From Thioalkalivibrio sulfidiphilus HL-EbGr7 (GTDB lineage: Bacteria > Pseudomonadota > Gammaproteobacteria > Ectothiorhodospirales > Ectothiorhodospiraceae): a DNA stretch of 64,000 nucleotides. Positions 6,423 through 63,682 of this stretch are shown here, piece after piece. Position 1 is the first letter of the stretch. Every line of letters begins with the position of its first letter. The stretch spans positions 2,356,001-2,420,000 of the forward strand of contig NC_011901.1 of the NCBI RefSeq assembly GCF_000021985.1, given 5' to 3'. A program made the translations under genes and the position numbers. The notes beneath the pieces were generated by a model, which worked only from the letters and a program-made list of their open reading frames with translations, was not told the origin of the DNA and searched no databases.

Positions 6423-6548
6423 GAGGCAAGATACAAGAGGCAAGATACAAGAAAAAACATGAAAAAAGAACGACAACAGCCTGTCAGATAGAAATATTTT
6501 CTCACCCCTGGTCTTTTCTTGTCTCTTGAATCTTGCCTCTTGTATCTG
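6423..6548. repeat. Iterated-heptamer inverted repeat, CAAG class (R1)
   Basis: The left arm (6423-6455) is a run of 7-nt words CAAGATA/CAAGAGG ending in an A tract. The right arm (6515-6548) is its reverse complement with one extra heptamer. The loop (6456-6514) is AT-richer than the surroundings. It fills the ruvA-ruvB gap, with the ruvA stop 5 nt beyond its right edge and the ruvB ATG about 20 nt from its left edge. Confidence 0.85.
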
Positions 6549-6552
6549 CGCT

Positions 6553-7158
6553 CTATTTGAGCGTTGCCTTCAAGGCCAGCCGGATCAGGTCCTCGGAACG
6601 CTCCGCCTCCCCCTCCACGGCGCTGATCAGGCGACTGGCCTCCTGGGGCTTGTAGCCCAGGGATACCAGGGCGGAGACGGCGTCACTGACCGGGTCCGGG
6701 GCCCTGGCGGCCGCGGCGGCCGGCTTGCCGCCGGTCAGCGTGACCGCGGCGGGCAGACTGCCCAGGCGGTCACGCATCTCCACCACCAGCCGCTCGGCGG
6801 TCTTGCGGCCGATGCCCGGCAGGCGCACCAGGGAGGCCACGTCTCCATCCATGACACAGCGGGAGAACTCGCTGGCGGTCATGCCCGAGAGGATGGCCAG
6901 TGCCATCTTGGCGCCCACGCCGGTGACCTTGATCAGGCTGCGGAACAGGGCGCGCTCCGACTCACTGGCGAAGCCGTAGAGCACGTGGGCGTCCTCGCGC
7001 ACGTGCAGGTGGGTGTGCAGGGTGACCTGCCCGCCCGGCTCGGGCAGGTCGTAGAAGGTGGAAAGCGGCGCCTCGATCTCGTAGCCCACCCCCTGCACGT
7101 CCAGGAGCAGGAAGGGGGGCTGCTTGCTCACCAACTCGCCACGCAGGCGCCCGATCAT
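6553..7158 (-). CDS. ruvA: RuvA, Holliday-junction-binding protein
   Basis: Tetrameric junction-recognition subunit of RuvAB. An N-terminal OB-fold ([10 protein letters not shown]...[11 protein letters not shown]), two helix-hairpin-helix motifs ([35 protein letters not shown]) and a C-terminal RuvB-contact domain ([13 protein letters not shown]) are evident in 201 residues. The ATG at 7158 overlaps the ruvC stop by 4 nt. The longer open frame reading back into ruvC has no family support. Confidence 0.97.
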
Positions 7159-7694
7159 CGCCGGGTCCTCCGCCGGCTGCCCCGGGAGCGGAAGGCGAGG
7201 CCCTGCAGGGCCTCGGGGATCTGGCTCACGGTGGCCTGGGTATGGGCGTGGCACAGGGCCACGGCCAGGGCATCGGCCTGGTCGGCGGCCGGTGCGTCCT
7301 TGAGGGAGAGGATCATGGTGATCATGTGCTGGACCTGTTCCTTGCTGGCGGCGCCGGTGCCCACCACCGCCTGCTTGATGGACGTGGGGCTGTATTCGGA
7401 GACCGGCAGGCCGGCGCGCACCCCGGCGCAGATGGCCGCGCCCCGGGCCTGCCCCAGTTTCAGGGCGGAGGACGGATTGCGGGAGACGAACACCTGTTCG
7501 ATGGCCAGGACCTCGGGACGGTGGGTCTCCACCAGCAGGCTGACCTCGTCGAAGATGCGGCCCAGGCGCACCACCAGGTCCTCCCCCTTCACCCGGATGC
7601 AGCCGCTGTGCACGTGGACGCTCCTGCGCCCGTCACTGTCGACGATGCCGAAGCCGGTGACCAGGGAGCCTGGGTCGATGCCTAGGATGCGCAT
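7155..7694 (-). CDS. ruvC: RuvC, Holliday-junction endonuclease
   Basis: Dimeric resolvase with an RNase-H-like fold. The four acidic catalytic residues fall exactly at the E. coli positions: Asp7 (GIDPGS), Glu66 (AIEQVF), Asp138 and Asp141 ([11 protein letters not shown]). MRILGIDPG at 7694 gives 179 residues. The 28-residue upstream extension of the frame is translated repeat DNA and is rejected. Overlaps ruvA by 4 nt. Confidence 0.97.
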
Positions 7695-7702
7695 TGTATG
7701 CG

Positions 7703-7780
7703 CAGTGGCAAGTGGCAAGTGGCAAGTGGCAAGGAACCCCTGGTTTTCCCTTGCCACTTGCCACTTGAGACTTGCCACTG
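7703..7780. repeat. Iterated-heptamer inverted repeat, AAGTGGC class (R2)
   Basis: Two 32-nt arms (7703-7734 and 7749-7780) around a 14-nt loop. The left arm is four successive copies of the 7-nt word AGTGGCA. The right arm is its reverse complement except for one unit (GTCTCAA for GTGGCAA). Located between yebC and ruvC, ending 8 nt before the ruvC start codon. This is the clearest example of the period-7 architecture in the window. Confidence 0.92.
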
Positions 7781-7804
7781 TTCAACCATAGTTTGTATAA
7801 ACCC

Positions 7805-8554: not shown

Positions 8555-8594
8555 GGAGGTCTGTCTCGCAGAGTGGTTCGGTTGGATTGGGGGA

Positions 8595-8663: not shown

Positions 8664-8723
8664 CCTCCGTGCGCACAGCGCATCACGGGGGCCCTGAAAT
8701 CATCACGCTAGTTTAACCCAGGC

Positions 8724-9353: not shown

Positions 9354-9792
9354 CGCGTCCGCCTTCCCCCAGGACCTGCTCGCGGATCACCCGGGCGTTG
9401 CTCCAGGAAAAGCACCACTCGGCGGCCTGGGCCGCGGGCAGCCAGCGGTATTCCGTATGCTCCCGGGGCTCGATGCGCACGGGCACCGGTTCCGGCAGGC
9501 GCAGCAGGAAGACATGCTCCAGGTTTTCATGGGCATCGGGGCCGTAGCGATGCCGCCAGGCCGTGTGGATGGGGAAGCGGTACTGGAGGTGACAATCCAC
9601 GAGCCCGTCGGCGCCGAGCCCGGTCTCCTCGAAGAGTTCCCGGCGGGCGGCCTGCAGCGGCGCTTCGCCCCACTCGAGGCTGCCGGTCACCGACTGCCAG
9701 AAATCCGGGGGCTCGCGGCGGCGCAGGAGCAGCACATCGCCGCCCTGGGTGTAGACGACGATCAGGACCGATTCGGGGCGTTTAGGAAACAC
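9346..9792 (-). CDS. nudB: NudB, dihydroneopterin triphosphate diphosphatase
   Basis: Nudix hydrolase expected to remove pyrophosphate from dihydroneopterin triphosphate in folate synthesis. The Nudix box runs from GSLEWGE to RELFEETGLG (about 42-65), and DFWQSVTGS and SNARVIREQVL match NudB specifically. Start set at GTG 9792 (FPKRPESVLIVVYT), giving 148 residues as in E. coli. The longer frame (MSLASCIL...) is translated repeat. It follows aspS, a common arrangement. Confidence 0.92.
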   Translation of the reverse strand: MFPKRPESVLIVVYTQGGDVLLLRRREPPDFWQSVTGSLEWGEAPLQAARRELFEETGLGADGLVDCHLQYRFPIHTAWRHRYGPDAHENLEHVFLLRLPEPVPVRIEPREHTEYRWLPAAQAAEWCFSWSNARVIREQVLGEGGRDA

Positions 9793-9873
9793 GAGAGACA
9801 AGATACAAGAGGCAAGAGACAAGAAAAACCGCTTTTCACCTGTCTCTTGCCCCTTGCCTCTTGTATCTTGTCA
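9793..9873. repeat. Iterated-heptamer inverted repeat, CAAG class (R3)
   Basis: The left arm (about 9793-9825) reads GAGACAAGATACAAGAGG then CAAGAGACAAG. The right arm (about 9838-9873) is its reverse complement with one extra 7-nt unit (GGGGCAA). It occupies the whole aspS-nudB gap: its right end touches the aspS stop (9874-9876) and its left end touches the GTG of nudB (9792). Confidence 0.88.
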
Positions 9874-11652
9874 CTAACCGCTTGCGGTCTGCTTCTTGAC
9901 CCGGATGCTCAGTTCCTTCAGCTGCGCGTCGGACACCTCGGCGGGCGCGTCCGTGAGCGGGCAGTGGGCGGTCTGGGTCTTGGGGAAGGCCATCACGTCG
10001 CGGATGGACTGGCTGCCGGTCATGAGCATGACCAGACGGTCCAGGCCGAAGGCGATGCCGCCGTGGGGCGGGCAGCCGTATTTCAGGGCGTCCAGCAGGA
10101 AGCCGAACTTATCCCGGGCCTCGGCCTCGCCGATGCCCAGCAGGTTGAACACGGCCTGCTGCATGGCGGTGGTGTGGATACGCACGGAACCGCCGCCCAC
10201 CTCGGTGCCATTGAGCACCATGTCGTAGGCCCGGGAGATCATCTCGCCGGGGTTGCCGGTGAGTTCCTCGGGACGCTCGACGCGGGGAGCGGTGAAGGGG
10301 TGGTGCAGGGCCACCCAGCGGCCTTCCTTCTCGTCATGCTCGAACATGGGGAAGTCCACCACCCACAGCGGCCGCCAGCCACGCTCCACCAGGCCCAGAT
10401 CGTGGCCCAGCTTCACGCGCAGGGCGCCCAGGGCCTCGTTCACGATACGCGCCTTGTCGGCGCCGAAGAAGATCAGGTCGCCGTCCTCGGCGCCGGTGCG
10501 GCCCAGGATCTCCACCACCACCGTGTCGGGCATGAACTTGAGGATGGGGGACTGCAGGCCCTCGCGCCCGGCATTGAGGTCGTTGACCTTGATGTAGGCC
10601 AGGCCCTTGGCACCGTAGCGGCCGACGAAATGGGTGTAGTCGTCGATGTCCTTGCGGGACAGCTCGCCGCCCTTGGGCACGCGCAGGGCGGCCACTCGGC
10701 CGGCGGGGTCCCTGGCGGGGCCGGAGAAGACCTTGAAGTCCACCTCGCCCATGATGTCGGTGAGCTCGGTCAGCTCCAGCGGGATGCGCAGGTCCGGCTT
10801 GTCGGAGCCGTAACGGGCCATGGCCTCGGCGTAGCTCATGCGCTGGAACGGGGTATGCAGGGGCACTTCCAGCACCTGGGCGAACAGCTCGCGCACCATC
10901 TCCTCCATGAGGCCCATGATGCCCTCCTCGTCCATGAAGGAGGTCTCGATGTCCAGCTGGGTGAACTCGGGCTGGCGGTCGGCGCGCAGGTCCTCGTCCC
11001 GGAAGCAGCGCACGATCTGGTAGTAGCGGTCCATGCCGCCCATCATCAGCAGCTGCTTGAACAGCTGCGGCGACTGGGGCAGCGCGAAGAAGCTGCCGGG
11101 ATGGGTGCGGCTGGGCACGATGTAGTCCCGGGCACCCTCGGGGGTGGCCTTGGTGAGCATCGGGGTCTCGATGTCCAGGAAGCCGTTGTCCTCCAGGAAG
11201 CGGCGCAGGGTGCGGGACACCCGGGCACGCATCTGCAGGCGCTTCTGCATCGCTGGCCGGCGCAGGTCCACGTACCGGTAACGCAGGCGGGTCTCCTCGT
11301 TGACCTCGTCCTCGTCCAGCTGGAAGGGGGGCGTCTCGGCGCTGTTGAGCACCGTCAACTCGCGGCCCAGCACCTCGATGGCGCCGGTGGGCAGGTCCGG
11401 GTTCTCGGTGCCGGCGGGGCGGCGGCGCACACGGCCTTTCACCTTGAGCACGTATTCGCTGCGCACCCGCTCGGCGGTGGCGAAGACCTCGGGCAGGTCC
11501 GGGTCGAACACCACCTGAACCAGGCCTTCCCGGTCACGCAGATCAATGAAGATCACGCCGCCGTGGTCCCGGCGCCGGTTGACCCATCCGCACAGGGTGA
11601 CTTCCTGGTCCAAGTGTGACTCGTTGACAGAACCGCAGTAATGGCTACGCAT
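9874..11652 (-). CDS. aspS: Aspartyl-tRNA synthetase
   Basis: Class II aminoacyl-tRNA synthetase charging tRNA-Asp (possibly also tRNA-Asn). An N-terminal OB-fold anticodon domain ([26 protein letters not shown]), catalytic motifs 2 ([20 protein letters not shown], near residue 215) and 3 ([12 protein letters not shown]) and the bacterial GAD insertion are visible. MRSHYCGSV at 11652 is the family start (592 residues). The upstream 45-residue extension is rejected. Upstream gene of the aspS-nudB-hydrolase group. Confidence 0.97.
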
Positions 11653-15243: not shown

Positions 15244-15337
15244 GATTCGAAATTCAAGATTCAAGATTCAAAGGTGAGGACGCGTGGGTTTTCCCTTTGA
15301 ATTTTGAATCTTGAATCTTGAATTTGAATTATGAATC
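15244..15337. repeat. Iterated-heptamer inverted repeat, GATTCAA class (R4)
   Basis: The left arm (15244-15272) is a run of the 7-nt word GATTCAA. The right arm (about 15296-15337) is its reverse complement with extra units. The loop (15273-15295) contains GACGCGTGG and GGTTTTCCC, words shared with the loops of R22 and R2. It lies between convergent genes: 2 nt after the HDOD stop and touching the acyP stop (15338-15340). Confidence 0.9.
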
Positions 15338-18170: not shown

Positions 18171-18183
<13 letters not shown>

Positions 18184-18230
18184 GAAGTGGGACTTAACTT
18201 CGCACTTCCAAATTCACACTTCCCACTTCA
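18171..18230. repeat. Iterated-heptamer inverted repeat, AAGTGTG class (R5)
   Basis: Compact element between convergent genes. The left arm (about 18172-18193, AAGTGAAGTGAGAAGTGGGA) and right arm (about 18200-18230, reverse complement TGAAGTGGGAAGTGTGAA) share 7-nt spacing of the word AAGTGNN. The left arm contains the DUF2069 stop (18181-18183) and the right arm contains the hda stop (18228-18230). Confidence 0.82.
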
Positions 18231-18929
18231 CCCCCCCTCCCCCAGAACCGCCCGGGCGAACGGCAGGGTCACCCGGCGCTGATCCCGCAGGGACGCCTGT
18301 TCCAGACGCTCCAGTTGCACCATGAGCGTGGCAAGATCACGGGCACAGGTGCGCAGCAGAAACTCCCCCACCTCCCCGGGTAGATCGAAGCCGCGGCGCC
18401 GGGCGCGTTCCACGAGCACGGCTCGCTTGCCGGCATCATCCAGAGGCTGTAGCTGGAACACCGGACCCCAGACCAGGCGTGAGCCCAGGTCGGGAAGCGC
18501 CGCCGACAGGGCCCGCGGGGCATGGGTATCGGCAAGCACCAGCCGGGTATCGCGGCACCTCGAGGCGTTGATGAGGTTGAACAGGCCCGTCTCGGTCTCC
18601 ACACACCCGACTAGCGCACTGATGCCATCCAGGCAGACCAGATCCAGCTGATCCAGACCTTCCAGTGCGTGTGCGCCACCCTGGCGCAGCAGGAAGGCGG
18701 GGAGGTAGGCGGCGCGGCGCCCCCATAGCGATGCCTCGTGACAGGCGGCCTGCAGCAGGTGGGTCTTGCCGCTGCCGGGCTCGCCGTAGAGATAGAGCTG
18801 GCGCTCCCCCTCGCCCCGGGCCAGGGCGCGCAGGCTGTCCAGGGCCAGGCCGTTGGCACCCGCGTGGAAAGCATCGAAATCGGACCCGTCCGGCAGGGTC
18901 ACGTCCAGGGTCAGCTGGCGCGCCTGCAT
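18228..18929 (-). CDS. hda: Hda, DnaA-inactivating AAA+ protein
   Basis: DnaA-like protein that promotes ATP hydrolysis on DnaA with the sliding clamp. 233 residues: N-terminal clamp-binding-like segment (ARQLTLDV, about 3-10), Walker A GEPGSGKT (49-56), Walker B-like DLVCLDGISAL and a C-terminal AAA lid with an arginine-rich sensor (ERARRRGFDLP). Start MQARQLTL at 18929, 1 nt after the perM stop. The 39-residue upstream frame is rejected. The TGA stop is inside repeat R5. Confidence 0.93.
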   Translation of the reverse strand: MQARQLTLDVTLPDGSDFDAFHAGANGLALDSLRALARGEGERQLYLYGEPGSGKTHLLQAACHEASLWGRRAAYLPAFLLRQGGAHALEGLDQLDLVCLDGISALVGCVETETGLFNLINASRCRDTRLVLADTHAPRALSAALPDLGSRLVWGPVFQLQPLDDAGKRAVLVERARRRGFDLPGEVGEFLLRTCARDLATLMVQLERLEQASLRDQRRVTLPFARAVLGEGG

Positions 18930-24349: not shown

Positions 24350-24443
24350 GCCACAGAGGACACAGAGGTCGCAGAGAAAAATCATAAGACTGACAGTTTG
24401 TGGCCTTTCTTGAAAACTCTGTGACCTCTGTGTCCTCTGTGGC
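24350..24443. repeat. Iterated-word inverted repeat, CACAGAGGA class (R6)
   Basis: Arms 24350-24376 and 24417-24443 are near-perfect reverse complements built of a 9-nt word (CACAGAGGA, CACAGAGGT). The loop is about 40 nt. It lies in the 248-nt gap between the DUF3108 gene and the lpd-like gene, 81 nt after the former's stop. Nothing else was recognised in that gap. Confidence 0.88.
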
Positions 24444-24517: not shown

Positions 24518-25933
24518 ATGAGCGAACACTTCGACCTGGCCGTGATCGGCTCCGGACCGGGCGGCTATCGCGCCGCGATCCTCGGCGCCCTGCGCGGGCT
24601 CAACGTGGCCATCATCGAGAAGGCCGACTGGGGCGGCTGCTGCCTCAACCGGGGCTGCGTCCCCAAGAAGGACTGGTACCACAGCGCGAAACTCATCGCC
24701 GCCCAGCGCCACTTCGCCGGGCGAGGCATCGAGGGCACGCTCACTGCGTCCATGGACGCCGCCTGGGAACACCAGGAGACCGTGGTGGCCACCGTGCAGC
24801 AGAGCTACGTGGACTACATGAAGCACCTGAAGATCAGCGCGCTGCAGGGCGCTGCCCGCTTCAAGGACACCCATACGCTCGAGATCACCGCCAGCGACGG
24901 CAGCACGCAACTCATCCAGGCCAGGCACAGCATCATCGCCACCGGCGCCACCGCCTTCGTGCCCGAACCCTTCGAGGCCGTGGACGGCAAGGTGCTGACC
25001 AGCGACATGCTGTTCGACAGTCCGCCGCCGAAGGGCAAGCGCGTGGCGGTGATCGGCAACGGCGTGGTGGCCACCGAGTTCGCCTTCATCTTCGCCATGC
25101 TGGGCAAAGAAGTGGTGTGGCTGTCCCGCTCCGCCGCCCTGCGCAAGATCCCCTTCAGCCCCCAGGCCATGGGCGCGTTGAAGACCGCCTTCAAGGAGCA
25201 CGGCATCGAGCACCGCCAGGGCGTGGGCTTCGAGTCCGTGGACACCGCCGGTGACGGCGTGGTGATCACCCTCAAGGACGGCGAAAAGATCCAGGTGGAC
25301 TGGGTGTGTCTCGGCACCGGCCGCACGCCCCACACCGAGGGCCTCGGCCTGGAGGCCGTGGGCGTGAAGCTGGACCGGGACGGCTTCGTGAAACGCAACG
25401 ACTTCCTGCAGACCGATGCCGCGAACATCTACGCCATCGGCGACGTGGCCAGCCCCTGGATGACCGCCAACCACGCCCTGTCGGACGCCACCGTGGCCGT
25501 GGACAACATTATCAGCGGCAACACCCGCAAACAGGATGGCCTGCAGGTGCCCATCGTCATCTACAGCGCCATCGAGATGGCGCGTCTGGGGATGGACGAG
25601 GACATGGCCGAGGACGAGGAACTGGAACCGGCGGTCGGCTTTGCCGCCTTCGAGACCTCCCCCTGCGCCCTGGGCCAGGACGACACTGCCGGCTTCGTGC
25701 GCCTGATCGGCGACATGGATTCCGGCGCCCTGCTGGGCGGTGAGATCGTGGGTGGCGAGGCCGGTGAACTGATCCACCTGCTGTCGCTCGCGCCTGACCG
25801 GGAGACGGGGCTCAGCTGGATCGCCAAAGGCGTGTTCAACCACCCGGCCCGGGCGGAAGAGGTCCTCAATGCCACCGAGACCCTGGCGAGCAAGTGGGGG
25901 CTTGCGGATCAGGTGTTTGGATTTGGTCAGTAG
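24518..25933 (+). CDS. Dihydrolipoamide-dehydrogenase-like flavoprotein disulfide reductase
   Basis: Class I pyridine-nucleotide disulfide oxidoreductase (471 residues). FAD site VIGSGPGGYRAA (about 9-20), redox disulfide in GGCCLNRGCVPKK (Cys42-Cys47), NAD site VIGNGVVATEFAF, second FAD motif IYAIGDV and a C-terminal His-Pro segment (VFNHPARAEEVL) that can serve as the base pair partner. The disulfide region differs from standard Lpd (extra Cys41, Lys after Pro). No 2-oxoacid dehydrogenase genes are adjacent, so the partner is unknown. The TAG stop is in repeat R7. Confidence 0.85.
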   Translation: MSEHFDLAVIGSGPGGYRAAILGALRGLNVAIIEKADWGGCCLNRGCVPKKDWYHSAKLIAAQRHFAGRGIEGTLTASMDAAWEHQETVVATVQQSYVDYMKHLKISALQGAARFKDTHTLEITASDGSTQLIQARHSIIATGATAFVPEPFEAVDGKVLTSDMLFDSPPPKGKRVAVIGNGVVATEFAFIFAMLGKEVVWLSRSAALRKIPFSPQAMGALKTAFKEHGIEHRQGVGFESVDTAGDGVVITLKDGEKIQVDWVCLGTGRTPHTEGLGLEAVGVKLDRDGFVKRNDFLQTDAANIYAIGDVASPWMTANHALSDATVAVDNIISGNTRKQDGLQVPIVIYSAIEMARLGMDEDMAEDEELEPAVGFAAFETSPCALGQDDTAGFVRLIGDMDSGALLGGEIVGGEAGELIHLLSLAPDRETGLSWIAKGVFNHPARAEEVLNATETLASKWGLADQVFGFGQ

Positions 25934-25990
25934 TCAGTAGTCAGTAGTCAGTGGCAAATTTCTACTGACCACTGACCACTGACCACTGAC
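25926..25990. repeat. Iterated-heptamer inverted repeat, AGTCAGT class (R7)
   Basis: The left arm (25926-25951) is GTCAG followed by repeated TAGTCAG heptamers. The right arm (about 25964-25990) repeats CACTGAC, the reverse complement with one changed base per unit. The lpd-like stop codon TAG (25931-25933) is the first TAG of the left arm. The convergent phosphatase gene ends 4 nt beyond the right arm. Confidence 0.88.
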
Positions 25991-25994
25991 AAAT

Positions 25995-28723: not shown

Positions 28724-28840
28724 CAGTGGCTAGTGGCAAGTCTCAAGTGGCAAGGAAAGAACCGTTCCCCCTCTCCCTCAGGGAGAGGGTCGGGGTGAGG
28801 GTGGTTTCCATTGCCACTTGAGACTTGCCACTGGCCACTT
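28724..28840. repeat. Iterated-heptamer inverted repeat with hairpin cargo, AAGTGGC class (R8)
   Basis: Arms 28724-28755 and 28808-28840 are reverse complements of heptamer runs (CAGTGGCTAGTGGCAAG...). The loop contains a separate GC-rich module at 28767-28804 with the palindrome CCCTCTCCCTCAGGGAGAGGG and a GGGGTGAGGG tail. The same module is in R10 and, inverted, in R20. The element starts 2 nt after the rhodanese stop and its right arm includes two bases of the OmpA-protein TAA. Confidence 0.9.
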
Positions 28841-31275: not shown

Positions 31276-31374
31276 GACACCTCCCGGCACAGTCCATGGA
31301 ACCGTCTGGGAGGGTAACCGCTATTCGGTGTCCTGTGCCACCTTGGCAGGTGGTTCTAACTGGTTACGTGGATG

Positions 31375-31463
31375 TAACGCAGAGCTCGCAAAGACGCAGA
31401 GAGCGCGAAGAAAAACAGGCAAAAAAACTTTGCGCCCTCCGCGTCTTTGCGAGCTCTGCGTTA
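31375..31463. repeat. Iterated-word inverted repeat, CGCAAAGA class (R9)
   Basis: Arms 31375-31410 and 31428-31463 are 36 nt each and nearly perfect reverse complements (TAACGCAGAGCTCGCAAAGA...). The word CGCAAAGA/CGCAGAG recurs every 8-9 nt. The loop is 17 nt. It sits in the 214-nt gap between the MotA-like start and the frameshifted rhodanese, which otherwise contains only the presumed motor promoter region. Confidence 0.9.
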
Positions 31464-31489
31464 TTTCGACGAAACCTGAAAAATGCGCT

Positions 31490-31883: not shown

Positions 31884-32030
31884 TGAAGTTGGAAGTGTGA
31901 ATCGGGAACACAAGTACGAAGTGTGAATTGGGAAGTGGGAAGTAAAACCGCTCAGTTACTTCCTCTCCCTCAGGGAGAGGGTTGGGGTGAGGGTGGTTTT
32001 ACTTCCCACTTCCAAACTCCCACTTCCAAG
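31884..32030. repeat. Iterated-heptamer inverted repeat with hairpin cargo, AAGTGTG class (R10)
   Basis: The left arm (about 31884-31945) is a long heptamer run (GGAAGTGTGAATCGGGAA, GAAGTGTGAATTGGGAAGT). The right arm (about 32000-32030) is the reverse complement of part of it. The loop holds the CTCTCCCTCAGGGAGAGGG module (about 31962-31997), as in R8. The element ends 2 nt before the pmbA stop and starts 16 nt from the rhodanese start. Confidence 0.85.
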
Positions 32031-32032
32031 TT

Positions 32033-33376
32033 TTATTCACCCGCCACAGTCACCTGTTCGAGCAGCAGCGAGCCGGTGCGGATGTTGCTGTCCACGTTCA
32101 CGTCGCGGCCCACGGCCTGGATACCCTTCAGGAGCTGCCTGAGGTTGCCGGCCACGGTGATCTCCTCCACGGGATAGGCGATCTCGCCGTTCTCCACCCA
32201 GAAGCCGGCGGCGCCCCGGGAGTAGTCACCGGTGACCAGGTTGATGCCGTGGCCGATGAGCTCGGTCACCAGCAGGCCGGTGCCCAGGGTGCGGATGAGA
32301 TCATCCAGGTCCTGCTCGCCGGGCTCGATGGTGAGGTTGTGTACGCCGCCGGCGTTGCCGGTGGTGCTCATACCCAGCTTGCGGGCCGAGTAGCTATCCA
32401 GCACGTAACCCTGCAGCACGCCGCCGGTGACCAGGTCACGGGGCCGGGTGGCCACGCCCTCGCTGTCGAAGGGCACGCTGCCCAGGGCGCCGGGCAGGTG
32501 GGGCTGTTCGTGGATGCGCACGAAGTCCGGGAACACCGACTGACCCAGGGCATCCACCAGGAAACTGGCCTTGCGGTACAGGGCGCCGCCGCGCACGGCG
32601 CCGACGAAATGTCCGATCAGGGAACGGGCCATCTCCGGCACGTAGATGGCCGGACACTGGCGGGTGGTCAGGCGCCGCCCGCCCAGGCGACGCACGGCAC
32701 GCCGGGCCGCCTCGCGGCCCACCGCCTCCGGGCTTTCGAGTCCGGCTGCGTCCCGGGCCACGGAATACCAGTAGTCCCGCTGCATGCCCTTCTCGTCCGC
32801 GGCCACCACGGAACAGCTCAGGGAATGCCGGGTGCCCGTGTAGGCACCGAGGAAGCCATGGCTGTTGCCGTACACCGCCATGCCGCGCATGGTGTTGGTC
32901 GAGGCGCCCTCGGAGTTGATGATGCGCGCGTCGAATTCCCGGGCCGTGGCCTCGCAGGCGCGGGCCAGTTCGATGGCGTGTTCCACGGACAGGTCCCAGG
33001 GATGATCCAGGTCCAGGTCCGGCCAGTCCTTCGCCATGAGTGCCGGGTCGGCGAGACCGGCGCAGCTGTCCTCCGCCGTGTAGCGGGCGATGCGGCAGGC
33101 CGCCTGCACCGCCTCGCGCAGGGCCTCCGGTGCCAGGTCCGAGGTGCTGGCCGTGCCCTTGCGCTGGCCGAAGTAGACCGTGATGGCCACGCCCTGGTCC
33201 TTGTGGTGCTCCAGAGTCTCCACCTCGCCCAGGCGCACGTTCACGGACAGCCCAAGGTCATTGCTGGCCGCCGCCTCGGCGCTGCTCGCACCCGCCTTGC
33301 GCGCCTCGTCCAGCATCTGCTCGACGATGGATTCCATGGTCCGCTGATCCCTGGGAAGGGCCTGAATCGCTGTCAT
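32033..33376 (-). CDS. pmbA: PmbA/TldE, subunit of the TldD/TldE metalloprotease
   Basis: 447-residue non-catalytic partner of TldD, needed with it for processing modified peptides (microcin B17, CcdA in E. coli). Family features include an N-terminal AGASSAEAAAS, the central STSDLAPEALREAV and the C-terminal GNAGGVHNLTIEPG and GYSRGAAGFWVENGEI-like block. Start MTAIQALPRD at 33376; the 33-residue upstream frame extension is rejected. Divergent from yjgA, with tldD 1.3 kb away. Confidence 0.95.
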   Translation of the reverse strand: MTAIQALPRDQRTMESIVEQMLDEARKAGASSAEAAASNDLGLSVNVRLGEVETLEHHKDQGVAITVYFGQRKGTASTSDLAPEALREAVQAACRIARYTAEDSCAGLADPALMAKDWPDLDLDHPWDLSVEHAIELARACEATAREFDARIINSEGASTNTMRGMAVYGNSHGFLGAYTGTRHSLSCSVVAADEKGMQRDYWYSVARDAAGLESPEAVGREAARRAVRRLGGRRLTTRQCPAIYVPEMARSLIGHFVGAVRGGALYRKASFLVDALGQSVFPDFVRIHEQPHLPGALGSVPFDSEGVATRPRDLVTGGVLQGYVLDSYSARKLGMSTTGNAGGVHNLTIEPGEQDLDDLIRTLGTGLLVTELIGHGINLVTGDYSRGAAGFWVENGEIAYPVEEITVAGNLRQLLKGIQAVGRDVNVDSNIRTGSLLLEQVTVAGE

Positions 33377-33573: not shown

Positions 33574-34104
33574 TTGAATCTCATTCACCACACATCATCG
33601 AAGCCCGTGTACGAAGACGACGACGAGGAATACATCAGCCGCAACCAGCTCAAGCGCGAGGCCGAGGAGGCCCAGGCCCTGGGCGAACGGCTGGTCACGC
33701 TCAAGGAAGCGGAGCTCGCGGCCCTGGATCTGCCCGAGCCCCTGCTGGAGGCGATCCGCGCGGCGCGCAGCATCCGCCAGCACGGCGCCCTGCGTCGTCA
33801 GCGCCAGTACATCGGCAAGCTGATGCGCAAGATCGACATCGAGCCGATCCGCGCCGCCCTGACCGAACGGGAGCAGGACCGTCACCGTGACGCCCGGGCC
33901 TTCAAGGCCCTTGAGGCCTGGCGCGAGCGCCTGCTCAAGGAAGACGACAAGGCCCTGAACGCCTGGCTGGCCGAGCATCCGGAGAGCGATGCCGCAACCC
34001 TGCGGGACTTCATCGACACCGCCCGCAACGCCCCCAACGCCGCGGCCAGAAAGACCGCCTCCCGCGCCCTGTTCCGCTACCTGAGCGAACAGGGAACTGC
34101 GTAG
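33574..34104 (+). CDS. yjgA: YjgA (DarP/DUF615), ribosome-associated protein
   Basis: Small basic protein implicated in 50S subunit assembly. Core conserved: DEEYISRNQLKREAEEAQALG, RQRQYIGKLMRKIDIEPIRAAL, RTASRALFRYLSEQ-like end. 176 residues from TTG 33574. A GTG at 33607 would start just before YEDDDEEY and is an equally plausible start, since no ATG precedes the domain. The TAG stop is the TAG of a REP GTAG head. Its position between pmbA and tldD is standard. Confidence 0.92.
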   Translation: MNLIHHTSSKPVYEDDDEEYISRNQLKREAEEAQALGERLVTLKEAELAALDLPEPLLEAIRAARSIRQHGALRRQRQYIGKLMRKIDIEPIRAALTEREQDRHRDARAFKALEAWRERLLKEDDKALNAWLAEHPESDAATLRDFIDTARNAPNAAARKTASRALFRYLSEQGTA

Positions 34105-43533: not shown

Positions 43534-43646
43534 TGAAGTACGAAGTGTGAATTTGAAAGTGGGAACAAAAGGCCGAAATCCCGCTCGATCTTACCGCCTT
43601 TCACTTCGCACTTCCCAATTCACACTTCTGGCTTCCAACCCCACTT
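43534..43646. repeat. Iterated-heptamer inverted repeat, AAGTGTG class (R14)
   Basis: The left arm (about 43534-43564) is GAAGTACGAAGTGTGAA then TTTGAAAGTGGGAA. The right arm (about 43600-43646) is the reverse complement of GGAAGCCAGAAGTGTGAATT and GGGAAGTGCGAAGTGAAA. It fills the rlmH-maf gap, and the first two bases of the rlmH stop triplet (43645-43647) fall in its right end. Confidence 0.85.
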
Positions 43647-45174: not shown

Positions 45175-45272
45175 GCTAGAGACAAGAGACAAGTCGCTAG
45201 AGGCAAGTGAAGACCGGGACCACGGCCCTTCGGGCCGTTCTTGCCTCTTGTCTCTTGCATCTTGCCTCTAGC
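45175..45272. repeat. Iterated-heptamer inverted repeat, CAAG class (R15)
   Basis: Arms 45175-45215 (GCTAGAGACAAGAGACAAG and on) and 45240-45272 (reverse complement GCTAGAGGCAAGATGCAAG). Both outer ends read inward as GCTAGAGRCAAG. An internal hairpin ACGGCCC/GGGCCGT lies in the loop. The proA stop TAG (45268-45270) is in the right arm terminus, and the nadD ATG is 3 nt from the left end. Confidence 0.9.
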
Positions 45273-46603: not shown

Positions 46604-46681
46604 CTCTGTGATCTCTGTGTTCTCTGTGGCAAAAAATCCTTTCTAATCATTCTTGCCACAGAGAACACAGAGGTCACAGAG
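46604..46681. repeat. Iterated-word inverted repeat, CACAGAGGA class (R16)
   Basis: Arms 46604-46632 (CTCTGTGATCTCTGTGTTCT...) and 46653-46681 (reverse complement, CCACAGAGAACACAGAGGTC) are almost perfect complements with 9-nt word spacing. The loop is 20 nt. Situated between holA and proA: the holA stop is 9 nt beyond the right end. Same word family as R6, 22 kb away. Confidence 0.9.
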
Positions 46682-47736: not shown

Positions 47737-47897
47737 AATGGACAGGATGAACAGGATTTTTTCATGATGAACAGGAAAAATTATGGAATCTGAACCGCGA
47801 ATTACACATTCGCTTCGGATGCAGGCAGACCGTCTCACGGTTTTCAACTAGTCATGAGTCCTGTCAATCCTGAAAAATCCTGTTCATCCTGTCCATT
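47737..47897. repeat. Iterated-word inverted repeat, ACAGGATGA class (R17)
   Basis: Outer arms 47737-47762 (AATGGACAGGATGAACAGGA and on) and 47873-47897 (its reverse complement) have 9-nt word spacing. The long inner part (110 nt) contains degenerate copies of the same word (ATGAACAGGAAAAATT; GTCCTGTCAATCCTGAAAA). It fills the lptE-holA gap, with the lptE stop 8 nt to its right. Confidence 0.85.
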
Positions 47898-47905: not shown

Positions 47906-48400
47906 TCAACGCGCCGACTGCAGCCGGAACATCACCAGCTGGGCCAGGTCCCGCTCCATGGCCTCGCGCAGCGCCTGCTCCTGCTCGCCCTGGCTGAGCA
48001 CCAGCAGCGGGTCGTGCACGTATTCGCGGGTGATGTTGAGCGTCACCGGCTCCAGGGCCCATTCGCTGCCGCGGCCGCGCACCTCGTATTCCAGCACCAT
48101 GTAGAGTTCGTATTCGCTCACCCGGGCATCGCCACCCACGGACAGCACGCGCCGACCGGTGGTGAGTCGCTGCACCCGGAATTCAGCGGTGGACGCCTCG
48201 CGGCTGTCCACCAGGGTCACGCCGCCGGCCCGCAGCAAGCCCGACAGTTCCCGGGCGAAACCGTGATGGGCATTGATCCCGGTGAGCCAGGTACGCTCCA
48301 TCTGCGGCGGCAGGTCGGCCGCGCCGCGCAGTTGAAAGCCGCAGGAAGCAAGGAGCAGAGACAAGAGACAAGTGGCAAGAGACAAGTAAATGCGGGGCAC
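47906..48400 (-). CDS. lptE: LptE, LPS-assembly lipoprotein
   Basis: Outer-membrane lipoprotein that plugs LptD. GTG start at 48400 gives a 20-residue signal peptide MPRIYLSLATCLLSLLLASC (lipobox LASC, Cys20), followed by GFQLRGAADLPPQM and the LptE core to 164 residues. A longer frame (ATG 48439) would start inside the repeat with a charged N-terminus and is less likely. The hydrophobic core of the signal peptide is encoded by the arm of repeat R18. Flanked by holA and leuS. Confidence 0.9.
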   Translation of the reverse strand: MPRIYLSLATCLLSLLLASCGFQLRGAADLPPQMERTWLTGINAHHGFARELSGLLRAGGVTLVDSREASTAEFRVQRLTTGRRVLSVGGDARVSEYELYMVLEYEVRGRGSEWALEPVTLNITREYVHDPLLVLSQGEQEQALREAMERDLAQLVMFRLQSAR

Positions 48401-48448
48401 CCTGTGCCCGCCGTTCAACTTGCCTCTTGTCTCTTGCATCTTGTTTCT
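48341..48448. repeat. Iterated-heptamer inverted repeat, CAAG class (R18), partly inside lptE
   Basis: The left arm (48341-48389) is a 7-nt register GCAGGAA, GCAAGGA, GCAGAGA, CAAGAGA, CAAGTGG, CAAGAGA, CAAGTAA. The right arm (about 48414-48448) is the reverse complement of GAAACAAGATGCAAGAGA and CAAGAGGCAAG. A small GGGCAC/GTGCCC stem is in the loop. The left arm is translated as the lptE signal peptide on the minus strand, and the right end is adjacent to the leuS stop (48450-48452). Confidence 0.88.
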
Positions 48449-54908: not shown

Positions 54909-54940
54909 CTCTCCGGGATAAGCCAAAAGTCCCTATCTCA

Positions 54941-55027
54941 CGCAGAGGGCGCAGAGACGCGGAGATCGCAGAGGATTTTTGACATCAATTCTTTGCGCCC
55001 TCTGCGTCTTTGCGTCCTCTGCGTTAA
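54941..55027. repeat. Iterated-word inverted repeat, CGCAAAGA class (R19)
   Basis: The left arm (54941-54975) is CGCAGAGGGCGCAGAGACGC and on. The right arm (54990-55027) is the reverse complement of TTAACGCAGAGGACGCAAAG, with 8-9 nt word spacing. The loop is 14 nt. It separates the convergent DUF1451 and DsrS-like genes; the latter's stop is 7 nt to the right. Confidence 0.88.
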
Positions 55028-56199: not shown

Positions 56200-56361
56200 A
56201 AGTGGCAAGTCTCAAGTGGCAAGTGGCAAGTTAAACCACCCTCACCCCAGCCCTCTCCCTGAGGGAGAGGGAGCAAAACCAGACATAACACCCTGCCTTA
56301 AATCGTGGTGAGGTTTGATATGGGTGTCCCTTGCCACTAGCCACTTGAAACTAGCCACTCG
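56200..56361. repeat. Iterated-heptamer inverted repeat with hairpin cargo, AAGTGGC class (R20)
   Basis: The left arm (56200-56232) is heptamers AGTGGCAAGTCTCAAGTGGC and on. The right arm (56328-56361) is the reverse complement with CTAG variants. The loop contains the hairpin module CCCTCTCCCTGAGGGAGAGGG (56237-56273) in inverted orientation, plus 50 nt of further sequence. It fills most of the gap between the VWA gene and the DsrS-like gene. Confidence 0.85.
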
Positions 56362-56364: not shown

Positions 56365-57648
56365 TCAGTTCAACTGAACGCGCTGCCCCCAGGGCACCGG
56401 CGTCTTGCCCTTGACCAGCCACACCACGGGATAGTGGGGCGGCAGCGGGGGGAAATCCCCCTGGGCGTCGGTGAAGTACACCAGCAGGTCCGGCTGGCGG
56501 TCGAGGCCCGCGATCCAGTCGAATACGGGCCGGAAGTCGGTGCCGCCGCCGCCCTGGAAGGACTCGGGCAGGCGCAGGGTCTCCCAGGGCTCGAACACCC
56601 AGGGGCCATCGGCATTCATCTGGTGATCACAGGCGTGCAGGGTGACCCGGGCGCGGATCTGGCCCTTGATGGCGTCCACCTCGGTGATGAAGTCGGTCAT
56701 CTCCTTCGCAGACACGGAACCACTGGTGTCCAGCACCACCACCACGTCCAGGTTGTGGCTCCTGAGGTTCGGCAGGATGGCGGGCTCGCCGCGCCTGGAC
56801 GAGGGACGGCTGTAGCTGTAGTCGTCCCGGGCCTGGGCGCTCATGTAGCGGGCCAGCAGCATGCGCCAGGGCAGCTGGGGTTGCAGCAGGTGATCCACCA
56901 GGCGCGCCATGTCGCCGCTGAGCTTGCCCGCCTGCATGGCCTGCTGGGCGGCGCCGGCCAGACGCTGGCGCCACTGCACCGCCAGTTCCTCCCGCTCCTG
57001 GTGGCCGAGCGGCGGGGGCGGCTGGTCACCGCCCTGGTGCTCGTCGGTCTCCCGTTCGGGACTCTCGGCTTCGTTCTGCCCCTCGCCGGGATCCTGCTGC
57101 GGGTTCTCGTCGCGGCGCTTGCCCATGTCCTCCCCGGACTCCGGCGGCGGCTGCTTGCCCTTGCCGCTGCGCTGCTCCTCGGGCTGGTCGTAGACGTGCT
57201 GGTCCAGGGTCGAGTCGTTCTCGTTGTCCTGGATGAAGGGGTAAATCTCCTCGGCGGACATGCCCTCGTAGCTGCGTTCATACAGCATGCCCGGAGGCGG
57301 CGTGAGGCCGTCGTTGATGAGGATGGGATTGATGGCGTAGTCGCAGGCGATGTCCCAGAGGTGCTTGACCCGGTGGCCGCGACGGGCGAAGTGCCCCAGT
57401 GCACAGTGCAGGGCCTCGTGGGCCAGCATGTACTGCACCTCGGCCAAGTTGAGCTTGTCGATGTACTCGGCGTTGTAATAGAGCTTGCGCGCGTCCGTGG
57501 CGGTGGTCCTGCACCAGTCTCCGGCGGGCTCAAGCGGCAGGCGCAGGACCAGGGCGCCGAGAAACGGCTTGTCCAGGATCAGGCGCGTGCGCGCCGCGCC
57601 CAGCTTGGTTTCGACGTCCGGCCGGCTCACGAGAAGGCTGGCCCGCAT
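56365..57648 (-). CDS. VWA-like protein with DUF2201-type metallopeptidase motif
   Basis: 427 residues. The N-terminal half has a zinc-protease-like motif HEALHCALGHFARR (HExxH, about 94) as in the DUF2201 family. The middle is a charged, low-complexity region (about 145-215). The C-terminal half is a VWA-like domain (VVVLDTSGSVSAKEM, about 305; MIDAS DxSxS). These proteins pair with MoxR ATPases in complex assembly. The start ATG is inside a 29-bp inverted repeat; GTG 57630 is a plausible alternative. Confidence 0.85.
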   Translation of the reverse strand: MRASLLVSRPDVETKLGAARTRLILDKPFLGALVLRLPLEPAGDWCRTTATDARKLYYNAEYIDKLNLAEVQYMLAHEALHCALGHFARRGHRVKHLWDIACDYAINPILINDGLTPPPGMLYERSYEGMSAEEIYPFIQDNENDSTLDQHVYDQPEEQRSGKGKQPPPESGEDMGKRRDENPQQDPGEGQNEAESPERETDEHQGGDQPPPPLGHQEREELAVQWRQRLAGAAQQAMQAGKLSGDMARLVDHLLQPQLPWRMLLARYMSAQARDDYSYSRPSSRRGEPAILPNLRSHNLDVVVVLDTSGSVSAKEMTDFITEVDAIKGQIRARVTLHACDHQMNADGPWVFEPWETLRLPESFQGGGGTDFRPVFDWIAGLDRQPDLLVYFTDAQGDFPPLPPHYPVVWLVKGKTPVPWGQRVQLN

Positions 57649-57773
57649 ATCTCACCGGTCGGACTCCGGCGGGAACAGTCTGTCATGCTGAGATTGACGA
57701 CCATTTCAACGTATTCCACATATGTATCGACCTGTTGTGCGCCAGCCGGTGTCCGACCGGTGAGATATGCGGG
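57642..57773. mobile_element. 132-bp element with 29-bp terminal inverted repeats (MITE-like)
   Basis: Ends 57642-57670 (CCCGCATATCTCACCGGTCG and on) and 57745-57773 are reverse complements with about one mismatch. The internal 74 nt is unrelated to the gene families here and has no coding capacity. The left end contains the VWA start codon, and the right end is adjacent to the MoxR stop (57774-57776). Flanks on both sides continue with partial similarity (GGCCAGC versus GGCTAGC). No target-site duplication is clear. Confidence 0.65.
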
Positions 57774-58820
57774 CTAGCTCTCGTAGAGCATCAGGTCCGC
57801 CACCTCGGTGGCCCAGCGGCCGAACTCCGGCACCGCGAACAGCGGCTCGCCCAGGGCACGGTGCATGTCCATGATCATCATCACGCCCATCTCCCGCTGC
57901 GGGAACACGCCGGCGTAGTTGAGGATGTTGCCCCAGACCACCGGTGCCTCCTCCGCCTCCCGGGCACGGATGGCGCGCCCCACCAGGGCGGCGGCCACGG
58001 CGTACTGCAGGTCGATCTCCCGGGGCGCCGGCAGGCGCTCGCCGCCGATGATGGCGTCCAGATCCGGCAGATCCTCCAGGTGGGCGAGGAAGGCGGCCAG
58101 TTCGATGCCGGCGGCCTGGCCGACACAGGCCTGCAGCGCGCCGGAGAGCAGCTCCGGCTGGCCCTCGAACTTCTGCAGGGCCCGGTGGGCGAACTCCCAG
58201 GAACGGGGCGAGGGGAAGGCCACGGGGTTATGGGCCGGGTCGAAATCGAACAGCAGGTCCGGGCGGAAACGGATGAAGGCGATGATGCGATCGTCGATAC
58301 CGGCACCGTAGGCCCAGGCGGCCCAGTCGTCCACGTTCAGGTCCACCTCGAAGTGGGAGAATCGGTTGGCGAGCGGCGCGGGCATGGTGTAGGTCACGCC
58401 CCGGTCGCCCTGGCGGTTGCCGGCGGCGAAGATCGCCCAGCCCTCGGGCACCTGGTAGTTGCCCAGGCGTCGGTCCAGGATCAGCTGGTAGGCGGCGGCC
58501 GAGACACTGGGCGGCGCCGAGGTGATCTCGTCCAGGAACAGGACGCCCTCGGGCCCGTGCCGCTCGGCATCAGGCAACATGGAGGGGATGGCCCACTCCA
58601 CCCGGTCGCCGTGCTTGAAGGGGATGCCGCGCAGGTCCGAGGGCTCCATCTGGGACAGGCGGATGTCGATCAGCGGCACGCCGTGGCGGTTCGCCACCTC
58701 AGTGATCATCTGGGACTTGCCCACCCCCGGCGGGCCCCAGAGCATCACGGGGGTGTGATGCCCCGAACGGGTGCTCTGAAACTCCCGGTCCAGCACTTGC
58801 AGCAACAGCGCAGGTCGCAT
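57774..58820 (-). CDS. MoxR-like AAA+ ATPase
   Basis: 348 residues, AAA_5 type. Walker A WGPPGVGKS near residue 29, Walker B GVLFLDEIT near residue 95, sensor GNRQGDRGVTYTMP and the C-terminal lid. It partners the VWA/DUF2201-like protein encoded immediately downstream on the same strand, as in many MoxR-VWA pairs acting in metal-centre or complex assembly. Target unknown. The 268-nt gap to 59089 contains no recognised signal. Confidence 0.9.
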   Translation of the reverse strand: MRPALLLQVLDREFQSTRSGHHTPVMLWGPPGVGKSQMITEVANRHGVPLIDIRLSQMEPSDLRGIPFKHGDRVEWAIPSMLPDAERHGPEGVLFLDEITSAPPSVSAAAYQLILDRRLGNYQVPEGWAIFAAGNRQGDRGVTYTMPAPLANRFSHFEVDLNVDDWAAWAYGAGIDDRIIAFIRFRPDLLFDFDPAHNPVAFPSPRSWEFAHRALQKFEGQPELLSGALQACVGQAAGIELAAFLAHLEDLPDLDAIIGGERLPAPREIDLQYAVAAALVGRAIRAREAEEAPVVWGNILNYAGVFPQREMGVMMIMDMHRALGEPLFAVPEFGRWATEVADLMLYES

Positions 58821-62491: not shown

Positions 62492-62550
62492 CGGATCAGG
62501 CACGGGTTCGGATTCGGCCGGTAGTGTACCGGATGGGCGTGAAGGCAGGA

Positions 62551-62689
62551 TAAAAGCCCTGAACGCAAAGACGCGAAGGCGCCAAGAACGCAAAAAAGCT
62601 CAATTGATACTTATGAAAACCCGGAACAAAGCATCAGCAAAACCTTCGCGTTCCTTTGCGTCTTCGCGTCTTTGCGTCGAGGGCCTTTA
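62551..62689. repeat. Iterated-word inverted repeat, CGCAAAGA class (R21)
   Basis: The left arm (62551-62595: TAAAAGCCCTGAACGCAAAG, ACGCGAAGGCGCCAAGAACG) and the right arm (62645-62689: reverse complement TAAAGGCCCTCGACGCAAAG and on) have 8-nt spacing. The last three bases of the right arm are the corC stop codon TAA (62687-62689). The loop is about 50 nt. Located between lnt and corC. Confidence 0.88.
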
Positions 62690-63556
62690 CTCCCCGTCCA
62701 CCGTCGGCTCCACATCCTCCCGCAGCCGCATCTCCAGCAGGTGCACGCGACGATTGTCAGCGCGCAGGACGCGCACCTGGAAGCGGTCGAACACCAGTTC
62801 GTCGCCGCGCTTGGGCACGTGGCCGAAGCGGTTGACCACCAGGCCGCCGATGGTGTCGAACTCCTCCTCGCTGTAGTCGGTGGAGAAGTACTGGTTGAAC
62901 TCGTCGATGGGGGTGAGCGCCTTGACCGTGTAGCGGCCGCTGGGGTGACGCATGATGTGGGTGAGGTAGTCCTCGATGTCGTGCTCGTCGTCGATCTCGC
63001 CGACGATCTGCTCCAGCACGTCCTCGATGGTCACCAGCCCCGCCACGCCGCCGTACTCGTCCACCACGATGGCCATGTGGTTGCGGCTGTTGCGGAACTC
63101 CTTGAGCAGCACGTTCAGACGCTTGCTCTCCGGCACGAACACCGCCGGGCGCAGCACGTCGCGCATGTCGAAGTCTTCGGTGTTGCCGTCCACGAAATAG
63201 CGCAGCAGGTCCTTGGCCAGCAGGATGCCCAGCACCTCGTCGCGGCTGTCGCCCACCACCGGAAAACGGGAATGGGCCGACTCGGTGATCACCGGCAGGA
63301 TATCCATCAGCTGTCCGTCGCCGCGCACCACGTCCATCTGCGCCCGGGGCACCATGATGTCGCGCACCTGCATCTCGGCCACCTGCAGCACGCCCTCGAT
63401 CATGCCCAGGGCATCCGGATCCAGGATCTCCCGCTGGTGCGCGCTGCGCAGCAGGTCGATGAGCTGCGCCCGGTCGCGGGGCTCACCGGTGAAGGCAAGA
63501 CTCAGGCGTTCCAGCCAGTTCCTCAGGGGCGGTGCGTTTCTTGATTTGTCGTTCAT
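62687..63556 (-). CDS. corC: CorC/YbeX-family CBS-domain protein
   Basis: 289 residues: N-terminal helical part, two CBS domains (IMVPRAQMDVV...HSRFPVVGDSRDEVLGIL; RNHMAIVVDEYGGVAGLVTIEDVLEQIVG) and a C-terminal CorC_HlyC domain (DYSEEEFDTIGGLVVNRFGHVP). Linked in other bacteria to magnesium/cobalt efflux and Lnt-pathway genetics. Start MNDKSRNAPP at 63556. The 14 upstream codons (MPLVSCLL...) are repeat R22. The stop is in R21. Confidence 0.93.
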   Translation of the reverse strand: MNDKSRNAPPLRNWLERLSLAFTGEPRDRAQLIDLLRSAHQREILDPDALGMIEGVLQVAEMQVRDIMVPRAQMDVVRGDGQLMDILPVITESAHSRFPVVGDSRDEVLGILLAKDLLRYFVDGNTEDFDMRDVLRPAVFVPESKRLNVLLKEFRNSRNHMAIVVDEYGGVAGLVTIEDVLEQIVGEIDDEHDIEDYLTHIMRHPSGRYTVKALTPIDEFNQYFSTDYSEEEFDTIGGLVVNRFGHVPKRGDELVFDRFQVRVLRADNRRVHLLEMRLREDVEPTVDGE

Positions 63557-63567
63557 AAAAGAAAGCG

Positions 63568-63682
63568 TTAGATACAAGAGACAAGAGACAAGAGGCAAGA
63601 TCGGGGACGCGTGGCTTCGACGGCCTCAGCGTCGACCCCAGGGCCTTTTCTTGCCTCTTGTATCTTGCATCTTGTCTCTAGT
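63568..63682. repeat. Iterated-heptamer inverted repeat, CAAG class (R22)
   Basis: The left arm (63568-63600: TTAGATACAAGAGACAAGAG, ACAAGAGGCAAGA) and the right arm (63646-63682: reverse complement GACTAGAGACAAGATGCAAG and on) have 7-nt units. The loop contains GACGCGTGG, as in R4, and a GCCTCAGCGTCGACCCCAGG stretch. It fills the gap between ybeY and corC, ending 11 nt before the corC ATG. Confidence 0.9.

Follow-up and report, generated by a model that had tools for sequence, protein, structure and literature searches.

How does a palindrome dispersed through a bacterial genome remain palindromic when each of its arms is itself a run of a short, variable word? The question is raised by a stretch of 64,000 nucleotides (nt) from Thioalkalivibrio sulfidiphilus HL-EbGr7, positions 2,356,001–2,420,000 of a genome consisting of one contig of 3,464,554 bp and referred to here as the window. 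Its intergenic gaps hold a series of hairpins, each made of two convergent tandem arrays of a word of 7 or 8–9 nt. The hairpins are probably old, dispersed intergenic elements that are now mostly inherited in place and are remodelled by slippage and template switching. Inversion of the loop and insertion or deletion of whole units occur between this genome and that of a sister species.

The hairpins are not a product of chance. A score of at least 17 was taken to define a strong hairpin, and a left-arm autocorrelation of at least 0.55 at lag 7, 8 or 9 to define strict periodicity. The window and a systematic 400 kb genome sample contained 76 strong hairpins, while three dinucleotide-preserving shuffles of each of these 21 sequences contained none; elements are present genome-wide and in sister species, and are neither as common in shuffled sequence nor isolated coincidences of one locus. 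The best left-arm lag among the 76 was 7 in 32, 9 in 18 and 8 in 8. In a larger set of 734 kb from the same genome there were 113 strong hairpins, 61 of them strictly periodic (41, 6 and 14 at lags 7, 8 and 9); seven others had lags of 10–12, and the remainder had no such period. When a hairpin was not required, 77 tandem arrays at lag 7 were found in the 734 kb, seven lying mostly within predicted genes, together with 16 at lag 5, 18 at lag 6 and 0–4 at lags 8–12; a block shuffle gave none at lags 7 and 9. The original prediction of periods of 7 or 8–9 nt thus stands for hairpins of both kinds, with the qualification that the 8–9-nt families are degenerate and do not form clean arrays.

The single architecture proposed from the window was borne out. 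An arm consists of some four units of 7 nt or three of 9 nt, the purine strands run towards the loop from both sides, and the element sits just 3' of a stop codon. Lag-7 arms have a median length of 31 nt (quartiles 28–32, or about four heptads) and lag-9 arms one of 27 nt (about three nonads), and the loops measure 15–82 nt. Five genomes of the genus were compared, namely the present one and four labelled G001–G004, of which G004 represents the sister species at 93.0% identity. The left arm is the purine-rich one in 41/41 lag-7 elements of the present genome, 20/22 in G002 and 17/18 in G003, as well as in 5/6 lag-8 and 13/14 lag-9 elements of the present genome. Neighbouring lag-7 arrays no more than 200 nt apart are convergent in 20 of 22 cases here, 22 of 27 in G004, 14 of 19 in G003 and 11 of 16 in G002. 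The words vary around constant positions: in lag-7 arrays selected for CAAG, the remaining three positions mostly read TGG, AGG, AGA, ATT, ATA or TCT in the present sample; GTA is frequent in G003, and GTT is the commonest in G002. Identical orders of units over 20–30 nt (for example GAAGTGNGAAGTGTGAATTGGGAAGTGGGAA and AGTGGCAAGTCTCAAGTGGC) recur in several species and at numerous unlinked loci. Members of a family in the present genome do not share loops of 20 nt or more, the exceptions being an inserted palindrome, some local duplicates and a single 13-nt match.

The evidence for remodelling comes from alignment with G004 (259,582 aligned positions), in which an orthologous gap was found for 62 of 137 hairpins. 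Among the 38 periodic elements with such a gap, the loop was direct in 22, inverted in 6 and unresolved in 10. The 24 non-periodic hairpins gave 7 direct, 1 inverted and 9 unresolved loops, with 7 too short to score; the inverted one is a degenerate ACAGGAT element at window position 47737. Control intergenic windows lacking a hairpin were direct in 542 cases, unresolved in 142 and inverted in only one, which lies within another inverted repeat of CGCCAAGACG words. Resolvable loops were therefore inverted in 6/28 periodic elements versus 1/543 control windows (Fisher p=5e-8). In a first pass, which used less data and a different score, 5 periodic loops had come out as inverted, 7 as direct and 4 as unrelated. 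The loop GGGTCATGAAAGACGAGTCCTTGTCTCA at L004:5718, for example, is an exact reverse complement in G004. Whole units are also inserted or deleted, with differences of 24 (3x8), 9 and 7 bp, and the right arm of one G002 element has grown to about ten units. An apparent loop inversion in a repetitive extragenic palindromic (REP) sequence at 109206 was not counted, because all three copies (109206, 306896 and L008:8376) have the same similar sequence of G004 as their match.

A similar flip is seen in an intrinsic terminator at L001:12401–12446, whose 4-nt loop reads CTTT here and AAAG in G004, and which is a possible template-switch footprint; another terminator (36384 in joined coordinates) is unchanged. 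Inversion of so short a loop fits template switching better than crossover, though homologous crossover between the arms may be the cause where loops are long. That several unrelated words and the terminator loop flip alike speaks against a site-specific invertase. An assembly error in G004 seems unlikely to lie behind the inversions, because reads normally span such short elements.

These changes suggest a route by which the hairpins could be maintained. They would have spread in the ancestor of the genus and since have been mostly inherited in place. During replication a single strand may fold arm on arm, and DNA polymerase could then change template between the arms, as published template-switch genetics would lead one to expect. 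Such a switch would invert the loop and tend to copy the letters of one arm into the other, while slippage would add or remove whole units of 7, 8 or 9 nt. With tandem words, each unit of one arm could pair with every unit of the opposite arm, and the hairpin should thereby withstand both slippage and mutation. Template switching between short inverted-repeat arms, with spacer inversion and arm homogenisation, is described for yeast and RNA genes in the available text of two reports (PMC8604942, PMC8794818). Spacer inversion is shared with the present elements, and arm homogenisation may be, but the cases described there concern yeast coding DNA with short spacers and RNA genes, whereas the elements here are dispersed bacterial repeats with loops of 15–82 nt. 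The earlier idea of a common process is supported for remodelling, by loop inversion and unit slippage, and not for the origin of the elements.

Over longer distances the words themselves change. In the TTCAA family the first letter of the unit is A in 91/93 units of the present genome and G in 99/117 units of G002; 17 of 20 sampled G002 arrays are GTTCAA, and at 3 orthologous loci an ATTCAA family here corresponds to GTTCAA in G002. In the yebC–ruvC gap the flanks are kept; the words are AAGTGGC in four genomes of the genus, and in G003 both arms read GGTACAA. In 12 other printed loci of the family the same gap spans 0–65 nt and has no hairpin. Sites also tend to be retained: of 83 gaps compared between the present genome and G002, 11 were occupied in both, 8 here only, 6 in G002 only and 58 in neither (odds ratio 13, p=3e-5). 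The finding of different families in the same gap was discarded as proof of word switching in place, since permissive gaps can be filled twice by chance. The evidence for word change is thus limited to shifts within a family and to yebC–ruvC with its kept flanks, and even in these cases a new element may instead have replaced the old one.

Several results weigh against inheritance in place with slippage and template switching. In 383 arm columns from 14 equal-length periodic elements compared with G004, 3 changes were paired and 24 one-sided, and one double change was unpaired; arm changes at this distance are mostly one-sided, and homogenisation therefore appears slower than loop flipping. 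Periodic loops compared with G002 were unrelated in 14 cases, direct in 1 and inverted in 1 (a loop holding a palindrome), and those compared with G003 were unrelated in 4 and direct in 1, so that flips are not traceable further back. Predicted intrinsic terminators are equally frequent in gaps with elements (8/57) and without (33/199; p=0.84), giving no sign of a terminator function. The shift of word in the TTCAA family is incomplete, the orthologous locus 65204 retaining ATTCAA in G002. Furthermore, events confined to a single element do not account for word shifts across the genome, which call for ectopic conversion or new copies, just as a unit order common to unlinked loci needs copying between loci, and no mechanism for spread between loci was found in this analysis. 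A further reading, which appears distinctly unlikely, is that the hairpins form a phylum-spanning class in which a dedicated copying process (polymerase or reverse-transcriptase-like, acting on folded single strands) writes and rewrites the words of both arms across many loci, giving each species its own current word at inherited sites.

The position of the elements relative to genes bears on what they might do. Gaps of at least 60 nt contain 58 of the 61 periodic elements, and the other 3 partly overlap predicted genes. Their median distance is 9 nt to stop codons (n=72) and 60 nt to start codons (n=44), with gene boundaries taken from a simple codon-usage caller, so that individual distances may be off. 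In tandem gaps the stop side is the nearer in 34/38, and by gap type there were 17 elements in convergent gaps against 9.3 expected and 3 in divergent gaps against 11.4 (p=0.002). As judged from the sequence, this position is consistent with a 3'-end RNA hairpin or with mere tolerance there. In the transcript the stem would stand directly 3' of the stop codon, where it may simply be tolerated or may protect or insulate the end of the messenger RNA (mRNA), as REP elements can do. If there is a constraint that involves the transcript or a binding protein, the purine-first polarity is the best indication of it, and template switching does not explain this polarity.

It is quite possible, although not expected, that selection acts on the elements as RNA hairpins at 3' ends, serving as terminators or mRNA stabilisers, so that complementarity is kept and the words are free. 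The closeness to stop codons, the excess in convergent and deficit in divergent gaps, the polarity of all 41 lag-7 elements and the retention of the yebC–ruvC hairpin through a change of word would all follow. However, canonical terminators are not replaced by the elements; a T-run lies within 10 nt of 33/150 element ends, a count that has no background rate for comparison; the two patterns tested across the family occur in 0/26 other genomes, so that the hairpins are not generally needed; and avoidance of promoters and genes predicts identical positions. A search of the window against Rfam gave no matches at the gathering score. Polarity would also be accounted for if a DNA-structuring protein read convergent purine-rich words at fixed spacing, and the arm lengths of the 7-nt and 9-nt families are alike (medians of 31 and 27 nt), but the many unrelated words within one genome make such sites improbable. 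Local birth of microsatellites, by slippage and inverted copying on the spot with likeness of words due to chance or composition, is highly improbable: it would explain the unit insertions and deletions and the G002 arm of about ten units, yet it is largely refuted by the recurrence of 20–30-nt unit orders at many unlinked loci in several species. In the available text of two reports, heptamers are over-represented among the simple repeats of many bacteria, which counts in its favour (PMC4692102, PMC4679880).

Movement of whole hairpins by a trans-acting transposase, in the manner of REP sequences, bacterial interspersed mosaic elements (BIMEs) or miniature inverted-repeat transposable elements (MITEs), with sites refilled by different families, is unlikely. 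It would explain the shared unit order at unlinked loci within families, the ACAGGAT counts in five species (54, 43, 19, 3 and 1 matches), the patchy distribution, the different families in the same orthologous gap, and the presence in the genome of five loci of the Y1 transposase family (PF01797). On the other side, target duplications in 117 elements are not above the shuffled expectation, and no clean empty site was found for any periodic element with a much shorter gap in the sister species, although four MITE copies give clean empty sites in the same comparison; a clean indel at L202:14300 lies inside an element. Loops of at least 20 nt are mostly not common within a family. GTAG-type REPs adjoin the gene at two of the five Y1 loci, and at one of these two a heptamer hairpin occurs at a distance of about 1.4 kb; no clear periodic hairpin was seen at the other three. 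The suggestion of a mobile element, at least in its simple form, was therefore not upheld: there is neither target duplication beyond chance nor a clean empty site.

Among known systems, REP and BIME elements with their REP-associated tyrosine transposases (RAYTs) are high-copy intergenic palindromes near gene 3' ends. The present elements differ in having no GTAG motif and, at the five loci, no Y1 transposase gene directly adjoining, and GTAG REPs form a separate set in the same genome. A link to RAYTs was considered and rejected, as no cognate heptamer element adjoined the gene at the five inspected PF01797 loci. MITEs are short non-coding inverted repeats; unlike them, the elements show no target duplication or clean empty site, and the MITE-like element of the window behaves differently. 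The P6b stem of the cyanobacterial tRNA-Leu intron carries degenerate heptads on both arms, but it is intron-borne and confined to a single locus.

The closest likeness is to the paired Xanthomonas heptamers GGGAATC or (GGGANTN)n (Rehm et al. 2015, PMC4692102). The available text of that report describes constant positions 1–4 and 6, mostly four units, and 70 and 75 convergent pairs in two species, which are intergenic, rarely between divergent open reading frames (ORFs), and on average 28 nt from the upstream ORF compared with 160 nt from the downstream one. In common with the present elements these pairs have a 7-nt unit with constant and variable positions, about four units, convergence, and an intergenic site near the upstream ORF. 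They differ in using one word, whereas here there are many words in one genome as well as 8–9-nt families; loop inversion and word replacement, found here, are not mentioned in the available text of PMC4692102. The G-rich Xanthomonas heptamer has been studied as a G-quadruplex in the same text. As read from the words, G3 tracts are absent from AAGTGGC, CAAGANN, ATTCAAG, ACAGGATT and CACAGAGG, with some in the GAAGTGN family, so a quadruplex is not possible for most words here. The heptamer arrays of TAACTGA in Beggiatoaceae, largely intergenic and patchy across phyla (PMC4679880), and of GGGACCG in Geobacter metallireducens, with four units (PMC2700814), are described in the available text as direct, with one inverted TAACTGA case. 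In the open-access literature, no description of such pairs was recognised beyond the Xanthomonas/Nostoc, Beggiatoaceae and Geobacter reports. The elements are thus a variant of the little-studied Xanthomonas-type pairs, new in their wider range of words and in the mode of remodelling described.

The distribution of the words is narrow within the family and scattered beyond it. A four-unit TTCAA pattern was found in 5/5 genomes of the genus and 0/26 other sampled genomes of the family; its matches far outnumbered those of a reversed control (145 vs 2 here, 215 vs 1 in G001, 338 vs 48 in G002). The ACAGGAT counts given above for the five genus genomes include overlapping matches, the last genome being 82% complete, and this pattern too was absent from the 26 other sampled family genomes. 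Sampling 280 kb from other genera of the family yielded 5 hairpins, none of them periodic, and 80 named gammaproteobacterial loci (1.27 Mb) yielded 34, of which 4 were periodic, one of these in a near relative (L026). The original prediction placed similar words in many unrelated bacteria, and strict patterns proved rare: among 199 other Pseudomonadota genomes, CACAGAGG occurred in 3 (reversed control 0), once as an inverted repeat, and AGTGGC in 4. The AGTGGC pattern is weakened as evidence of spread because its reversed control matches nearly as many genomes (3/199); of the four genomes only G048 is convincing, having 11 matches and inverted pairs of GAGTGGC.

The statement on unrelated bacteria was supported, within limits, by single cases. 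Three stretches (140 kb) of two plasmids of Gemmatirosa kalamazoonensis (Gemmatimonadota) contained 31 hairpins, 15 of them periodic inverted repeats (autocorrelation of at least 0.5) and 12 of those 15 purine-first; the stretches were picked via short-arm matches to plasmids, and their density of elements is not that of a random sample. Some words are identical or nearly identical to those of the present genome (GGACAGGATGAACAGGAT, CGCAGAGGACGCAGAGGA, ACCACAGAGGACACAGAGG), and others are specific to Gemmatirosa, including GGGACTC and families of 10 and 11 nt. These longer words form inverted repeats in the plasmid stretches L247, L269 and L270, for example AGGACTGAAGA. One Bacteroides plasmid stretch holds an inverted repeat of a similar word, and a second Bacteroides stretch and a cyanobacterial plasmid each hold a single array only. 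Searches with individual arms gave no match to plasmids for GAAGTG, 10 Klebsiella plasmid records for AGTGGC and two weak phage matches for CACAGAG.

Within the window itself, 18 inverted repeats of the paired-word class were found, together with one weak element and one half-array. The class is thereby confirmed, against a predicted 21 elements and a half-element; the 21 may include two repeats that fall outside it. Seventeen hairpins score at least 17, all of them intergenic or with no more than 24% of their length overlapping a predicted gene; two are outside the class, a GTAG-type REP pair at 34101–34168 and a MITE-like element at 57625–57789. Of the remaining 15, 11 pass the strict periodicity test and four (31362, 47737, 54940 and 62551) are more degenerate, their class being assigned by their words (CGCAAAG/CGCAGAG, ACAGGATGA). 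Lower thresholds added the elements at 43535–43635, 45175–45272 and 48357–48441 and the weak one, with GAAGTG words and a score of 12, at 18175–18231. A lone CAAGGGG array at 34187–34207 may be the predicted half-element; the prediction gave no coordinates by which its elements could be matched one by one.

The ruvA–ruvB gap holds CAAGAGG/CAAGATA words (6422–6554), present also in G004 and G003; in G002 and G001 the word is kept in one arm only, which in G002 is a broken state. The AAGTGGC hairpin of the yebC–ruvC gap (7703–7780), where the name ruvC rests on operon place only, has a hairpin in the same place in all five genus genomes, and in G004 a single AAGTAGC unit on both arms. In the gap 3' of aspS, CAAGATA/CAAGAGG words (9791–9875) correspond to a GGTACAA hairpin in G003 and to a single remaining arm in G002. 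The ATTCAAG element at 15245–15329 has its loop inverted in G004 and the word GTTCAAG in G002. A period-9 element of CACAGAGGA words (24350–24443) and an AGTCAGT element (25921–25994) were not found in G004, where each gap is unalignable. The palindrome CCCTCTCCC lies within the loops of three elements: AAGTGGC at 28725–28839, with its loop inverted in G004; GAAGTGN at 31906–32038; and AAGTGGC at 56201–56359, of the same family in G002. A palindrome CCCTCTCCCTGAGGGAGAGGG was likewise noted, in either orientation, inside the loops of these three and of L002:2945–3045, spanning two families.

Degenerate CGCAAAG/CGCAGAG words make up the element at 31362–31476, and degenerate CGCAGAG words that at 54940–55024, where the G002 gap has a GTAG REP pair. 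At orthologous sites G002 has the same family for the GAAGTGN element at 43535–43635, the degenerate period-9 ACAGGATGA element at 47737–47897 (loop inverted in G004, as noted) and the CAAGAGA element at 48357–48441. It has an AAGTGGC hairpin in place of the CAAGANN element at 45175–45272 and a GTTCAAG hairpin in place of the CGCAAAGA element at 62551–62689. The CACAGAG element at 46604–46681, of period 9 and pyrimidine-first, is absent in G002, and the arms of the CAAGANN element at 63559–63690 are decayed there. Ten proteins adjoining elements were scanned against Pfam: RuvB, RuvA, YebC, an aspartyl-type and a leucyl-tRNA synthetase, an HDOD protein, a pyridine nucleotide oxidoreductase, an OmpA-family protein, a PmbA/TldD protease and an aldehyde dehydrogenase. 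The nearest named relatives of the window RuvA are from a Thioalkalivibrio metagenome-assembled genome (88%) and Ectothiorhodospira species (68–75%).

The two repeats outside the class have relatives of their own. The MITE-like element has terminal inverted repeats GCCCGCATATCTCACC/GGTGAGATATGCGGGC, and related G004 copies have clean empty sites in the present genome; longer relatives of about 180–240 bp, with TTAA or CTAG near their ends, lie at L202:10372–10613 and, in G004, at C2:63912–64089 and C13:842–1027. The REP pair at 34101–34168 is BIME-like, and GTAG REPs also adjoin Y1 transposase-family genes at genome positions 2,915,433 and 1,416,320. A further gene of this family adjoins an array resembling clustered regularly interspaced short palindromic repeats, with the repeat GTCCCTACCCGGGAAGCCGTTAAGGCTGTTGAAAC, at L022 (upstream of genome position 1,920,675).

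Taken together, the results suggest that heptamer repeats, so far isolated curiosities in several bacteria, can belong to one word-independent class of fixed polarity and position. They also call for caution: where the two sides of such a stem change together in a compensatory way, selection for RNA structure is not necessarily the cause. The inverted loops are a direct record of apparent template switching in wild bacteria, and how dispersed palindromes stay palindromic becomes testable, since any two strains can be compared for the orientation of their loops.

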